From positions 1-37,542 of IMG/VR virus record IMGVR_UViG_3300017917_004490: DNA of 37,542 nt; one strand, written 5' to 3'. Position numbers and translations under genes: made by a program. Under the pieces are notes generated by a model, which was not told the DNA's origin, did not search any database, and saw only the letters and a program-made list of their open reading frames with translations. This DNA is from a virus. Positions 39-5,989 of this stretch are shown here, piece by piece (position 1 is the first letter of the stretch; every line of letters begins with the position of its first letter).

Positions 39-524
39 TCAACATTCTACACCTTGACACCAGTCGACCCGCAGAACTCCGGCGTTCAGAGCCTTCGAAA
101 CCTCAGAAATTGCGCGATCATGCCGCCGCCGCAGGCCATCTTTTCCAAACGCGACGCCCATCCGGCGCTTGATCTTGCCCCAAGGCACCCGCGAATAGCC
201 CCTCGCCAGATAGTCACAGGCCATGATGACCAGCCTGCGGTCCTCAGGCTTCTCGATCGCGCGCAACCACTCACTGACCGCATCGCGCCTCGCCACTTCC
301 TCGCACGACAGCGGCAGCGGCTTGAGCGGCACGTCGCTTGACACCCCATCCCCGCCCCTGGCGTCATAGTCGCCTGCCGAGCGCTCCCGCGTCATCAGAT
401 GCCATGGCCCGTCCGATGCGAAGGGCCAGCGCCCGCCACCTGGTGACCGCGCCCACAAAGCCGCCGCATCGACCAGGGCGTCGCGCACCGCCTCGAAGGT
501 CCACCACGTTCCACCATTGGCCAT
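39..524 (-). CDS. DUF6362-like helix-turn-helix phage protein
   Basis: A 161-residue basic protein. The C-terminal half (about 80-155) has the look of the DUF6362 family: a Trp-Leu-Arg stretch, then a conserved Asp-Arg-Arg-Leu-Val helix, then a basic HTH-like segment (VPWGKIKRRMGV followed by an Arg-rich helix). Such proteins are often found beside terminase genes in alphaproteobacterial prophages, where a regulatory or packaging role is suspected but unproven. I chose the ATG at 524 because AAGGGGAAGG lies just upstream; a longer frame to 560 lacks this. It is the last gene of the leftward early operon and is separated from the helicase gene by a 300-base repeat-rich region. If the window ends are joined it directly precedes terS. 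Family call moderate, function unknown. Confidence 0.7.
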   Translation of the reverse strand: MANGGTWWTFEAVRDALVDAAALWARSPGGGRWPFASDGPWHLMTRERSAGDYDARGGDGVSSDVPLKPLPLSCEEVARRDAVSEWLRAIEKPEDRRLVIMACDYLARGYSRVPWGKIKRRMGVAFGKDGLRRRHDRAISEVSKALNAGVLRVDWCQGVEC

Positions 525-547
525 CGCCTTCCCCTTTCCAGATACCT

Positions 548-808
548 GACAGTTAAACACAGATATTCATATTTCTCGCGCGCCTGCGCACACGGCTGAA
601 ACCAATCGGGCGCAAAACTGTCCGCACTGTCCGGAAGCCCGGTTTTTCAAGGCTTTCAACTGTCAGGCGGACTGTCTGGCAACTGTCCCGCGCCACTGTC
701 AGAACGCCCCGCCGCGCCCCCTTGCGGCCCTGCCGGCACACCCCGCCGCACCCCTGCCGAACAGTCCGCCAGACAGTTGCCCTGACAGTCCGCCAGACAG
801 TTCAATCC
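548..808. repeat. ACTGTC/GACAGT repeat array, candidate iteron origin or operator cluster
   Basis: This gene-free stretch contains six exact ACTGTC hexamers on the plus strand (starting at 617, 626, 659, 671, 682, 695) and four exact GACAGT hexamers (548, 772, 784, 796), plus a GAACAGT variant at 759. The left block (659-700) and right block (761-808) are in opposite orientation and separated by a C-rich spacer. In the right block the period is exactly 12 bases, and the units at 761-772 and 785-796 are identical (ACAGTCCGCCAG). Spacing near one helical turn suggests cooperative protein binding. An AT-rich stretch (about 553-577) flanks the array. Position next to primase and helicase genes favours a replication origin; a promoter/operator region for the DUF6362-like gene is the alternative. 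The repeats are seen directly; the role is inferred. Confidence 0.75.
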
Positions 809-823
809 ATGCCCCGGCGCGCG

Positions 824-2464
824 TCACAGGCCCGGCCCCTGCCCCAGCCACGGGTCGTCCAGATCGTCGAACGGCGCCGGTGGCGGGATGAAGCCGCCCA
901 CTTCCGACGCCGCGCCCGGGCGGCTCTTCAGGCGTATGCCGACGCGCTCCTTCTTGCCGGTCTTGTGGTTGGCCACGGCATAGACCTGGGCGTTGTTCAG
1001 CTCCTTGCCGAAGGTGGTCTGGCTGATGATCCGGTCTTCCTTGTCCCCGCGATCCAGGCAGAACTGGCGGAACGCCTGGTACAGCGGCGTCGCCTCTTCC
1101 CGCGCCTCGGGGTCGCTCAGGTCGCAACAGGTCTCTATGAACTCGCCCAGCGCGCTCGTCACCTGCCAGAAGCTGGCACTGGCCCGCTGCGCCAGCTCCG
1201 GCTCCGGCACGGTGCCCTCGTTCAGCCAGGCGATGCAGCCCTCGATCATCCAGTTCAGGATGCCCGGCCCCTCGTCCAGCAGGCGCTGCTTCACCAGGTG
1301 CACCGGCTCGTCCGCCACCCCCGGCGTAATGCCGAACTGCACCACCCACGGATACAGCTTGAATCGGCGGCGAAAGCCCCGGTCGTCGCTGGGCGGCTTG
1401 GGCAGCCCGTTGCACTCGAAGATCAGCTGCCAGTGCGGGGTAAAGGAAAGTTCGGTCGTGGCATGGGCCCCGCGCGCAATCATCTCGCTGCCCGTCGCCT
1501 GCTTGATCCGCTGCCCGTCCCACGTCGCGCCCTTCTTGGGCTCGTCGCACACCACCAGGCGGACGTCGCCGGCCAGGCGCACGATATCGCTCTGGTGGGC
1601 AGCACTGGCCTGCGCCGGGCCTTCCAGGAAGGTCTTGGGGTCGGCCTTGCGGGCATAGGCGCCATGCAGCTGGCAGATCACGTCATTGGTCGCGCTCTTG
1701 CCGTCCTGCCCCTTGCCCTGGAAGATATAGAACGCCTGATCGGAAATCAGCTGGGTCAGGCCCATGCCGTATATCCGCCTGATCGCCTCGCGCTGCACCG
1801 GGTCATGGTGCATGGTCTCCATGCGCGCGATCCATTCCCGCGCCACCGCTCCGGCATGATAGGCCACATTGGCCACCTGCATGAAGCGGTCCGCCGCCCG
1901 GTGGCCGGGCGTGAAGGTATGGGTCCAGCCATCCGGCCCCCGCACCATGCGGATCACGCCGTTGGCGGCATGATAGGCGTGCACTTCCGTATCGAAATCG
2001 CGGATCCATGCCTGCGTCACGAAGGGCGCGTCCAGATCGTCGCCGGCCTCCATGTCGCGCAGGCCCTTGTACTGGTTCAGGCCGGCGGTGCACTTGGCAT
2101 GGTCGCCGCACTTGATGCCGTAACCGAACAGCTGGCCCACGCGCTCGTCGGCCATCTCGCGGGTATATTTCGGGCCGAACACGGCGGCCAGGTCCTCAGG
2201 CTCCGCATCGCGCAGCGCGGCCGATTCCTCGCTGATCGCCATGGCCGCCTTCTGGGCATAGGCCAGCGCCCGCATCGGCCCCTGGTCGGTTGACCAGCGG
2301 ATTCCGTCAAAGGCCACCCAGCACCCCTTGCCGCCGGCCCCGTCGGCCAGCCACAGCAGCTGCGCGGCCCCGGCGGCATCGCGCGCCGCCTCATAGACCC
2401 GCCGGGCAAAGCCCAGGTCGTTCATCGGCAGGCGCGCCCGCTCCAGGGCGGAAAGGCGCTTCAT
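824..2464 (-). CDS. Phage/plasmid primase-type SF3 helicase (D5/P4 family)
   Basis: A 546-residue protein of the D5-like/P4-type superfamily 3 helicases, which unwind DNA at phage and plasmid origins. The Walker A motif is QGKGQDGKS (residues 249-257) and the Walker B is LVVCDE (303-308). Motif C/sensor 1 follows as FECNGLP with the key Asn at 352, then an Arg-rich finger region (DRGFRRRF). The N-terminal 230 residues match the D5_N-like region rather than a primase domain; priming is supplied by the adjacent DnaG gene. The start overlaps the dnaG stop by 4 bases (ATGA), so the two are probably translationally coupled. It lies immediately upstream of the ACTGTC repeat array, which fits loading at a nearby origin. 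Confidence 0.9.
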   Translation of the reverse strand: MKRLSALERARLPMNDLGFARRVYEAARDAAGAAQLLWLADGAGGKGCWVAFDGIRWSTDQGPMRALAYAQKAAMAISEESAALRDAEPEDLAAVFGPKYTREMADERVGQLFGYGIKCGDHAKCTAGLNQYKGLRDMEAGDDLDAPFVTQAWIRDFDTEVHAYHAANGVIRMVRGPDGWTHTFTPGHRAADRFMQVANVAYHAGAVAREWIARMETMHHDPVQREAIRRIYGMGLTQLISDQAFYIFQGKGQDGKSATNDVICQLHGAYARKADPKTFLEGPAQASAAHQSDIVRLAGDVRLVVCDEPKKGATWDGQRIKQATGSEMIARGAHATTELSFTPHWQLIFECNGLPKPPSDDRGFRRRFKLYPWVVQFGITPGVADEPVHLVKQRLLDEGPGILNWMIEGCIAWLNEGTVPEPELAQRASASFWQVTSALGEFIETCCDLSDPEAREEATPLYQAFRQFCLDRGDKEDRIISQTTFGKELNNAQVYAVANHKTGKKERVGIRLKSRPGAASEVGGFIPPPAPFDDLDDPWLGQGPGL

Positions 2465-4224
2465 ACGTCCAGCCCCCGGGCATCGATCAGGGCATGGGTC
2501 GCGGCGCGGCGGCGCAGCTGGGCGCTGGGCGCGCGCGCCCGGCCTTCCACCACCTGCGGCAGCATGGCCTCGGTCATCGGCCCCCGGATGCCCAGGGTGC
2601 GCCGATACAGCACGCGGGCCATCTCGGCCTCCTCGCGCACGGCAGGCCCGTGGGCCAGGTCGCTTTCAATGTCGCGCACCACGGCGCTGATTTCCTTCTT
2701 CACAAATCCCAGGGCCTCGGCCATTTTCATCACGTCGGCGATTTCCTCGGTAATGGCCTTGCGCTCGGCCCGTTTCTTCACCACGGCCCGCACGATGGCG
2801 ATCAGCCGGGCGGCACTGTCGCTCTCGCTTTCGGGAAAGGCATATTCGCCTTCCTCGGCCTGGCGCACGGCGTGCAGGGCATGGTCCCCGGCCACGGCCG
2901 GCACGGCGGAAACCTCGCGGTCAAACCGCGCCCGCCACGCCGCCAGCACCTGCACCCGCGTCTCGTCATGGCCAATCTGCGCCACCAGTCCAGACAGTTC
3001 GTCCCAGATCCCGGCCACCCTCTCAGGCGCGCGCGCGGCGGCGTGCTGCGCCTCATCCCCCAGAACCCCGGCCACCACCGCGTCAAACAGCACGTCATGA
3101 CCGCCGCGTGCCTCGCAGACCATGGCATCGATCGCGCGCGCCGCCGCATCCGGACCCAGCGCGCGCACCAGGTCGTCCGGGTCCTGCCCGGCGGGCAGAA
3201 AGGCCACCCCCAGGCCATGCCCCGGCCCCAGCATCGGCAGGGCCGTGGTAACCGCGCGCACCGCGGCCCGCCGCCCGGCCTCGTCGCCATCGAACAACAG
3301 CACGGGCCGGTGATGCACCCGCCAGCAACGTTCCAGCTGGTGGGCCGTCATGGCCGTGCCCATCGGCGCCACCACGGCCCCCACGCCCGCCCCGGCCAGG
3401 GCAATGACGTCAAAGTACCCTTCCACCACCAGCAGGCGGCCCTCGGCCTGCGGCCGGGCCAGCGGTGCGGCGCGGTGCAGGTTGAACAGCAGCCGCCCCT
3501 TGTCGAACAGCGGCCCGTCCGGTGAATTGACGAACTTGGGCTGCTGGTTGCGCCGCTGCGGCCACACCCGCGCGCCAAAGCCCGCCAACCGCCCCCGGCT
3601 GTCATGGATCGGAACGGTGATCCGGTCCCAGAACAGTTCCTTTACGCCCATGGGCTCACCCGGCCCGGCGCCAATGTCCTGCCGGTCGACCAGCAGGCCC
3701 GCCTGCCGCCCCAGCCCCTCGCTGATCCCCTGCCCCTTCAGGCTGCCGGCCATGCCGCGGGCATAGCCCAGGCCAAAGGCGCGCACCGCATCCGGCCCGA
3801 TGCCGCGCCCGGCCAGATATTCCATCACCGCGCCGGCCTGTTCCAGCTGCCCGGCATAGATCGCCTGGGCCCGGTCCAGCACGTCGCGCACCGTCGCCGC
3901 CGCCTTCGCCGCCTCGGCCGCACGCGGCGAAGGGGCCGGCATCTCGATCCCCGCCGCCTCGGCCAGCTGCCGCACGGCTTCGATGAATGTCAGCCCGTCA
4001 TGCTGCATCAGCCAGCGGAACGCGTCCCCGTGCCAGCCACAGCCAAAGCAATGGGCGAACTGCTTGTCATCATTGATGGTAAAGCTGGGCGTCTTCTCGC
4101 CATGGAACGGGCAGCACGCCTTGAACTCGCGCCCCGCTTTCGTCACCTTCACCGTCCGCCCGATCAGGCTGGACAGCACCGTCGCATCCCGCACCCGGTC
4201 CAGAAACCCCGCGTCCAGCGCCAC
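2461..4224 (-). CDS. dnaG: DNA primase, DnaG type
   Basis: A 587-residue DnaG-like primase that makes RNA primers for phage replication. The CHC2 zinc-binding domain is complete: Cys38-x2-His41 in CCPFHGEKTPSF, then Cys59-x2-Cys62. The catalytic TOPRIM domain shows VVEGYFD (acidic Glu268) and LLFDGDEAG (Asp312-Asp314). The C-terminal third is Ala-rich and has no clear DnaB-binding match, which suits a partner SF3 helicase. The start is GTG at 4224; the Shine-Dalgarno GGGGAGG is at 4233-4239, inside a palindromic repeat element. It overlaps the downstream helicase gene by 4 bases. Family call is very secure. Confidence 0.95.
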   Translation of the reverse strand: MALDAGFLDRVRDATVLSSLIGRTVKVTKAGREFKACCPFHGEKTPSFTINDDKQFAHCFGCGWHGDAFRWLMQHDGLTFIEAVRQLAEAAGIEMPAPSPRAAEAAKAAATVRDVLDRAQAIYAGQLEQAGAVMEYLAGRGIGPDAVRAFGLGYARGMAGSLKGQGISEGLGRQAGLLVDRQDIGAGPGEPMGVKELFWDRITVPIHDSRGRLAGFGARVWPQRRNQQPKFVNSPDGPLFDKGRLLFNLHRAAPLARPQAEGRLLVVEGYFDVIALAGAGVGAVVAPMGTAMTAHQLERCWRVHHRPVLLFDGDEAGRRAAVRAVTTALPMLGPGHGLGVAFLPAGQDPDDLVRALGPDAAARAIDAMVCEARGGHDVLFDAVVAGVLGDEAQHAAARAPERVAGIWDELSGLVAQIGHDETRVQVLAAWRARFDREVSAVPAVAGDHALHAVRQAEEGEYAFPESESDSAARLIAIVRAVVKKRAERKAITEEIADVMKMAEALGFVKKEISAVVRDIESDLAHGPAVREEAEMARVLYRRTLGIRGPMTEAMLPQVVEGRARAPSAQLRRRAATHALIDARGLDV

Positions 4225-4488: not shown

Positions 4489-4763
4489 CACTGCAGGCCC
4501 CCGGTAAGGCCCGCTGCCGCCACCCCCCGCCGATGCGCAGTTTCCACTGCACCGGGCAGCCGTTGGCAGAACATGCCGACCAGCGCGCCACGCAATGCGG
4601 CGTCATCGATGGCACCGAAACCGCATGACAGGACCTCACCCAGAACAGCTGTCACATCGACGGCGAACTGCGCATAGGGCTGTCCCTGGCGCTCGCGCTC
4701 AACGCCCCAGGCGTCGACAATCTGCAGAATGGCCAGCATGGCCTCTTTGGCATCCTCAGGCAT
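4488..4763 (-). CDS. Hypothetical protein in replication operon
   Basis: A 91-residue, mostly helical protein (PEDAKEAMLAILQIVDAW..., then a second helical region with two Cys residues). I do not recognise the family. Stop/start overlaps of the TGATG form on both sides tie it to the clamp gene upstream and the small gene downstream. A GTG one codon earlier (4766) is an alternative start. Coding is supported by tight packing in the operon and by the lack of any better frame on either strand. Confidence 0.6.
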   Translation of the reverse strand: MPEDAKEAMLAILQIVDAWGVERERQGQPYAQFAVDVTAVLGEVLSCGFGAIDDAALRGALVGMFCQRLPGAVETAHRRGVAAAGLTGGLQ

Positions 4764-5989
4764 CACGCCACCCGCATCGGCATCAGCACCTGCAACAGGC
4801 CGCCTTCGCCGTCCGCGCTGCTCAGCAAGGCCGGGTCGCCGGCCGTCCGCATCGCCATTGTCACGCTCTCGCTCGCCAGGGCGGCCAGGGCCTCGCGCCA
4901 GTAATTGCCGTTAAAGCCGATGGTCACCGGCTCCCCGGTCAGGCTACAAGGCACGTCTTCGCTGGCCGTGCCGTTATCGGCGCTGGTCACCGTCAGCGTC
5001 GCCAGCCCGTCGGCAAAGGCGCACTTGACGCACCGGGTCTTGTCGCTGGCCATCACCGTCACGCGCCCGATCGCCTCGGCCATGGCCTCGCGGTCAAAGG
5101 TCGCCACGTTCGGGCACTGGGCCGGGATCACGCGGGTATAGTCGGGAAAGGTCCCGTCAATCAGCTTGCCCAGCAGCTTCACGTCGCCATCGCCAATGGT
5201 CCAGCGCACCGCCGCCGGGCCATCCATGGCCACGGTCACCACCGGCGGCGCGGCATCGGCCTTGTCCGCCGCCTTCACCGCATGGGCCAGCAGGGGACGC
5301 AACAGGTCCACCGTGCGCCGGGCAACAATCCCCGCCGGCCAGCTCGCCCCGCCCTCGGGCAGATCGATGCACAGCACGGCCAGCCGGTGACCATCCGTCG
5401 CCGCCGCCTTCAGGTCCATGCCATCGGCGTGCAGGTAAACCCCGTTCAGGTAATACCGCGTCTCTTCGGTCGAAACGGCATGACGCACGGCATTCAGCAT
5501 GTCGTCCAGGCGGGTGGCCGGGATCTCCATCGATGCCGGGCAATCGCGCACCGGCGGCAGCGGGAAATCGGTAACCGGCAGGGTCGGCAGGCGGAACCTG
5601 GTGCGCCCCGCCTTCACGTTCAGCACAGCGCCGTCCACTTCCAGCACCGCCATGGCATCGCCATCGAACCGCGCCACGGCAGCCGCCAGCAGCTTGGCCG
5701 GCACCGTCACACCAAACGGCGCGGTGCCTGCCTGCCACTCCCGGCTGTCCGGCTGGCCGGAATCGTCGCTGGCCAGGCGGCGCACGGCCCAATGGTCCAG
5801 GTCGCAGGTAGTCAGCACGATCTGGCCATCCGCCGCTTCCAGAAAAACGTTGGCCAGCACCGGAATGGTGTTGCTGGCCTGCACCACCCCGGCCACGTCC
5901 TTCATCGCGGCGGCCAGGCGCCCGGCCCGCACGCGGGTGCGCATCGCGCGCGGATCGGCCGATGTCTCAGTCTTCTTTGCCACGGTCAT
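4763..5989 (-). CDS. dnaN: DNA polymerase III beta subunit (sliding clamp) homologue
   Basis: A 408-residue protein with the three-domain DnaN architecture: an N-terminal domain with VFLEAADGQIVLTTCDLDHW, a FRLPTLPVTDFPLPP segment typical of the first inter-domain region, and LNGVYLHADGMDLKAAATDGHRLA, the classic domain 2 signature. The C-terminal part has a LTVTSADNGTASEDVP stretch and ends in a MPMRVA-like tail, as in bacterial clamps (usually about 370 residues). It should form a ring that tethers DNA polymerase. The ATG at 5989 has a Shine-Dalgarno GGAGA directly against it, so the GTG at 5983 is a possible better start. A clamp encoded by a 37-kb phage without its own polymerase is uncommon. 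Confidence 0.9.
   Translation of the reverse strand: MTVAKKTETSADPRAMRTRVRAGRLAAAMKDVAGVVQASNTIPVLANVFLEAADGQIVLTTCDLDHWAVRRLASDDSGQPDSREWQAGTAPFGVTVPAKLLAAAVARFDGDAMAVLEVDGAVLNVKAGRTRFRLPTLPVTDFPLPPVRDCPASMEIPATRLDDMLNAVRHAVSTEETRYYLNGVYLHADGMDLKAAATDGHRLAVLCIDLPEGGASWPAGIVARRTVDLLRPLLAHAVKAADKADAAPPVVTVAMDGPAAVRWTIGDGDVKLLGKLIDGTFPDYTRVIPAQCPNVATFDREAMAEAIGRVTVMASDKTRCVKCAFADGLATLTVTSADNGTASEDVPCSLTGEPVTIGFNGNYWREALAALASESVTMAMRTAGDPALLSSADGEGGLLQVLMPMRVA

Follow-up and report, generated by a model that had tools for sequence, protein, structure and literature searches.

The window, meaning the whole stretch of DNA analysed here (IMG/VR virus record IMGVR_UViG_3300017917_004490, 37.5 kb, 67% GC), is from a phage of sphingomonads, and it carries an array of opposed ACTGTC repeats in the gap between the stop of a superfamily 3 (SF3) helicase gene (824) and the start of a DUF6362-like gene (524). 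We conclude that the array is very probably an iteron replication origin for the SF3 helicase, placed directly 3' of the helicase gene. By analogy, it is best read as an origin of a known kind, the SF3-bound iteron origin of Staphylococcus aureus pathogenicity islands (SaPI), other phage-inducible chromosomal islands (PICI) and P4 replicons, located here in a full-size phage; the new part is a covariation between a residue in the helicase wing and a base of the iteron. An unannotated repeat would thereby become a placed origin in a phage family without annotated ones, and a simple rule would become available for finding origins in thousands of phage genomes.

The repeat array between the helicase and DUF6362-like genes

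Exact ACTGTC hexamers were located on the plus strand at 617, 626, 659, 671, 682 and 695, and exact GACAGT hexamers at 548, 772, 784 and 796, in agreement with the six and four copies counted in the first-pass annotation, which had also listed a near-copy, identified here as ACAGTC at 761. The whole window contains 18 ACTGTC hexamers against 7.2 expected (standard deviation 2.6), a number reached in none of 100 shuffles, and ten of the 18 fall within 548-801. Likewise, the top intergenic 7-mer occurs 6 times, which none of 100 shuffles attained. The repeats are real and non-random. The units at 761 and 785 that had been described as identical are the beginnings of matching 18-mers, with a 72% unit at 773 between them. 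The array consists of the following elements, in which handles beginning with L denote related loci.

548-553, minus strand: core iteron GACAGT, facing the 617/626 pair (exact hexamer search)
554-616, no strand: core spacer with the AT-rich stretch 553-577, a candidate unwinding element (sequence)
617-631, plus strand: core pair of ACTGTC iterons (617 and 626) with a 9-bp step (exact hexamer search)
659-700, plus strand: iterons ACTGTC at 659, 671, 682 and 695 (positions kept in L004, L155-157 and L161)
701-759, no strand: C-rich spacer between the two accessory opposed blocks (sequence and alignment of relatives)
761-777, minus strand: GACAGT iteron at 772, preceded by the near-copy at 761 (sequence)
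784-801, minus strand: iterons GACAGT at 784 and 796, in 12-bp steps (exact hexamer search)

The spacing of 9-13 bp reported earlier holds within the blocks but not between them, where the gaps are 69, 33 and 65 bp. The C-rich spacer at 701-759 separates opposed blocks, as had been proposed. The core conserved in relatives is 548-631, in which the iteron at 548 opposes those at 617 and 626 around the AT-rich stretch. This stretch had been assigned to one side of the array; it is actually located between opposed iterons. In the core spacer, GAATATCTGT..TTTAACTGT is conserved with L004.

Recurrence of the array in relatives and comparison with known systems

A megablast search with 25 kb of the window against phages gave no match, and relatives were therefore sought by protein. 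The wider locus set combined viral contigs with genomes of the bacterial family and class of one relative, and the non-redundant set comprised 210 helicase loci. An array was scored where a significant cluster of a 7-bp repeat lay within 420 bp 3' of the helicase stop, with an equal-length segment inside the gene as control. By this criterion 178 of the 210 loci carried an array, compared with 2 control segments. The search for the motif beside related helicases that the first-pass annotation had suggested thus found a recurring clustered array, and its proposal of a replication origin, judged from sequence comparison, gains support.

L004, the closest helicase relative from the first search (70% identical), shares the array with the window in both position and layout, and six related loci align with the window across the array with iteron positions kept. 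Sites within one array change together, as in L161, where nearly all were jointly changed to ACTGTTC. The repeat sequence varies by lineage, with CCTTCC, CCTCCC, CTCTCC, ACCCGCC and CCGTCC among the examples, while the arrangement recurs, in that a spacer (median 62 bp) separates sites on one strand from sites on the opposite strand; between neighbours the step is most often 9 bp in the 178 arrays. At L061 and L077 the whole opposed-iteron core is apparently tandem-duplicated 3' of the helicase (15 sites, about 200 bp apart). At L013-L025, L034-L039 and others the helicase protein is far longer, about 900-1050 amino acids, and a primase domain is probably fused at its N-terminus, whereas in the window DnaG is a separate protein.

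Arrays were also present in the named phages RcapNL, Mae-JY28, Pthi1, LilPharaoh, AmM-1 and Pan4. The recorded host of Microcystis phage Mae-JY28 (L320) is cyanobacterial, but its helicase is 52% identical to that of the sphingomonad phage L018 and its array is of the CCTTCCA type; the host record may deserve a check. In the GenBank record of Lactobacillus phage A2, whose origin has reportedly been the subject of published work, a rep_origin is annotated from the end of the SF3 gene onward, where very AT-rich DNA separates ACGGGAG sites from CTCCCGT sites. A2 resembles the window in the position of this annotated element, directly 3' of an SF3 helicase gene, and in having opposed iterons that flank an AT-rich stretch; it differs in its iteron (ATCCTCCCGT), in encoding one primase-helicase protein of 770 amino acids, and in a host from another phylum. 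In a held-out set of 50 non-redundant phage loci found with the A2 helicase, arrays were detected in 39 loci and in 2 control segments.

In satellite phage P4, primase, helicase and winged helix are fused in one polypeptide, the alpha protein, and a second cis element is present. The window instead has separate genes for primase (2461-4224) and helicase (824-2464), and the P4 repeat sequence is different; shared features are an SF3 helicase with a C-terminal winged helix, predicted in the window, and a Toprim-type primase. The winged helix of the P4 alpha protein binds the origin repeats (PMC4234260, PMC10516667).

The origins of SaPI/PICI are published parallels, and their Rep protein recognises the origin through its C-terminal domain (PMC6092414, PMC7581432). 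The window initiator is likewise a D5/SF3-type helicase, whose profile matches a Protein Data Bank (PDB) entry, 7ola, and the array (548-801) is directly 3' of the initiator gene (stop 824), a likeness of position with a putative origin role. The opposed sites at 548 and 617/626 flank the AT-rich 553-577, with an AT excess that is modest in most relatives. A C-terminal domain that sets specificity would also fit the covariation of wing residue and iteron base, which forms an incomplete code. Unlike these islands, the window has terminase, portal, major head and head-tail joining genes and is not a PICI; its primase is a separate DnaG and its iteron sequence is different. An initiator helicase with opposed iterons 3' of its gene was called peculiar to satellite islands in 2018, but the arrangement is common in full-size phages.

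In the staphylococcal cassette chromosome SCCmec, the D5-type helicase Cch2 uses its C-terminal domain to bind direct repeats that lie immediately downstream of the operon (PMC7581432). It differs from the window system in having three AAGTG iterons and in not belonging to a phage, and replication in vivo was not shown for Cch2. ORF904 of plasmid pRN1 is an SF3 helicase with a C-terminal winged helix and an essential region directly 3' of its gene (PMC4234260); pRN1 has a stem-loop and an archaeal-type primase, whereas the window has iterons, and hairpin potential is not universal in its relatives.

Covariation of the helicase wing with the iteron

The AlphaFold2 model of the 546-residue helicase (pLDDT 86) ends in a C-terminal winged helix, in which the predicted recognition helix spans residues 482-491 and the predicted wing residues 495-508. 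The helicase alignment profile matched PDB 7ola, which we take to be SaPI5 Rep. The best Foldseek matches of the model were C962R of African swine fever virus and E5 of monkeypox virus, and the tail of C962R has been reported to be similar to the P4 origin-binding domain (PMC10516667). A phmmer search of PDB with the C-terminal 116 residues returned nothing useful.

A helicase alignment of 13 rows proved too diverse for a search for patterns, and narrower alignments were used. Among loci with both genes, iteron class was best tracked by a helicase wing residue (adjusted mutual information 0.60), compared with 0.26 for the best DUF6362 column. In a first tree test of the wing residue only 2-3 independent pairs were available, and a second covariation test, made on a poorly aligned column, gave no signal, which was resolved by realigning only the winged helix. 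For a larger set, the iteron base before CC (N4) was assigned from consensus motifs by written rules, with three ambiguous loci excluded. At one wing position, Lys was present in 45 of the 48 loci with C at N4 and in 3 of the 87 loci with T. The resulting phi of 0.90 was the top value among 1404 helicase features. Because the wing column had been picked after scanning all columns, traits were simulated on the tree: none of 200 reached phi 0.90 anywhere, and 13 of 200 matched the number of co-changes. The A2 helicase has Lys in its wing, as expected with its CCTCCC iteron, and in the A2-helicase set each of the seven CCC-type arrays was accompanied by Lys, in two cases within a wing one residue longer, as read from the alignment.

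On this reading, the origin would work as follows. The SF3 helicase would bind each ACTGTC iteron via its C-terminal winged helix, with both recognition helix and wing in contact, and helicase rings would be loaded at the inward-facing sites, flanking the AT-rich spacer of the core (548-631). ATP-driven unwinding would then open the core spacer, and the co-encoded DnaG would prime before the work passes to a replisome that uses the sliding clamp encoded by the phage. In this scheme we infer the binding, the loading of rings, the melting and the activity as an origin. More broadly, and as an evenly balanced judgement, SF3 phage initiators and their iteron origins may form a large set of co-evolving pairs in which the wing reads the centre of the iteron, so that specificity would be partly readable from sequence, predictable and switchable by a few residues. 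Within that reading, and held neither more nor less firmly, the alphaproteobacterial-type set would pair Lys with CCC and other residues with TCC. How an SF3 initiator reads its origin can be tested directly on the series of naturally occurring helicase and iteron variants.

Several observations weigh against these conclusions. No array was found by the same criterion in 32 of the 210 loci, or beside the helicases of phiC31, BMP-1, RR1-A and Javan124. L106, L222, L252, L261 and L276 are among the loci without a near array but have one farther downstream, by a few hundred to about 1,600 bp. Across loci the spacer is only modestly AT-rich (41% against 36% in the gene), and the unwinding-element part of the model is therefore weaker than the iteron part. 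The relation between wing and base has few independent changes behind it (9 on the tree, 5 of them co-changes); the association is strong but not numerous. The window's own wing, which is longer, has H500 and belongs with the ACTGTC class, is outside both the simple Lys rule and the comparison. Finally, A2-type phages also pair Lys with CGTCA arrays, indicating that the wing-base relation is not a complete code.

Alternative explanations and neighbouring genes

The first-pass annotation had offered, as its alternative, that the array consists of sites for the DUF6362-like protein, which would bind there as at an operator and control transcription of its own gene or of the replication genes. 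A DUF6362 gene does follow the array in the window and at 117 of the 178 arrays, but the other 61 have none within 1.5 kb. In L106, L252 and L261 the array adjoins DUF6362 and extra DNA separates it from the helicase gene, while in L035 and L084 it stays beside the helicase with DUF6362 1 kb away. The protein's predicted fold is all-helical and its C-terminal part, by our own reading of the sequence, resembles a helix-turn-helix; however, a structure search with the protein gave no significant match to a DNA-binding protein. Moreover, DUF6362 proteins 52-58% identical to that of the window adjoin quite different iterons, and in the 91 loci of the larger set that also have DUF6362 the iteron base follows the helicase winged helix (phi 0.93) rather than the best DUF6362 column (0.47). 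The operator explanation is disfavoured on these grounds, and we consider it highly improbable.

The opposed blocks could instead form a cruciform or stem-loop that is itself the functional element, as proposed for pRN1 and phage BIP-1, with the repeats as a by-product. Compared with shuffles, the window region folds far more stably (z -6.9; median -3.7 over the 178 loci), and stem-loops 3' of such genes were proposed in the pRN1 paper (PMC4234260). However, opposed copies of one repeat pair automatically, L155 and L156 have an array but fold weakly (z -1.5 and -2.1), and what is kept within each array is repeat identity, not pairing. BMP-1, a sibling of BIP-1, has no array and may represent a different origin type. 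This explanation appears, if anything, slightly less probable again, and an iteron origin bound by the SF3 helicase is preferred to both.

The genes around the array are on the minus strand in the order DnaN, DnaG, SF3 helicase and DUF6362-like protein, with a 4-bp overlap between the helicase start and the DnaG stop.

39-524, minus strand: DUF6362-like / phrog_6836 protein (Pfam and PHROG matches; the array elsewhere does not require it)
824-2464, minus strand: SF3 (D5-type) initiator helicase, 546 amino acids (PHROG primase/helicase families, AlphaFold2 model, Foldseek, PDB profile match)
2461-4224, minus strand: DnaG-type primase (Pfam CHC2, DNAG_N, Toprim)

Genes for the terminase large subunit, portal, major head and head-tail joining proteins are located farther on, also on the minus strand, along with a weak tape-measure match; the presence of these structural genes identifies the window as a phage and not a satellite. 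GC skew, suggested earlier as a check, was negative throughout the window without a switch and adds nothing to the origin question. A promoter/terminator scan detected no terminator and a single weak promoter-like site at 546-573 (plus strand), which points rightward over the AT-rich stretch, away from the DUF6362 gene. The DNA polymerase III beta clamp (DnaN) is phage-encoded beside DnaG and the helicase (4763-5989, minus strand). At the C-terminus of the DnaG-type primase (residues 473-545), the GapR DNA-binding domain was matched weakly and below threshold (E 6e-4).
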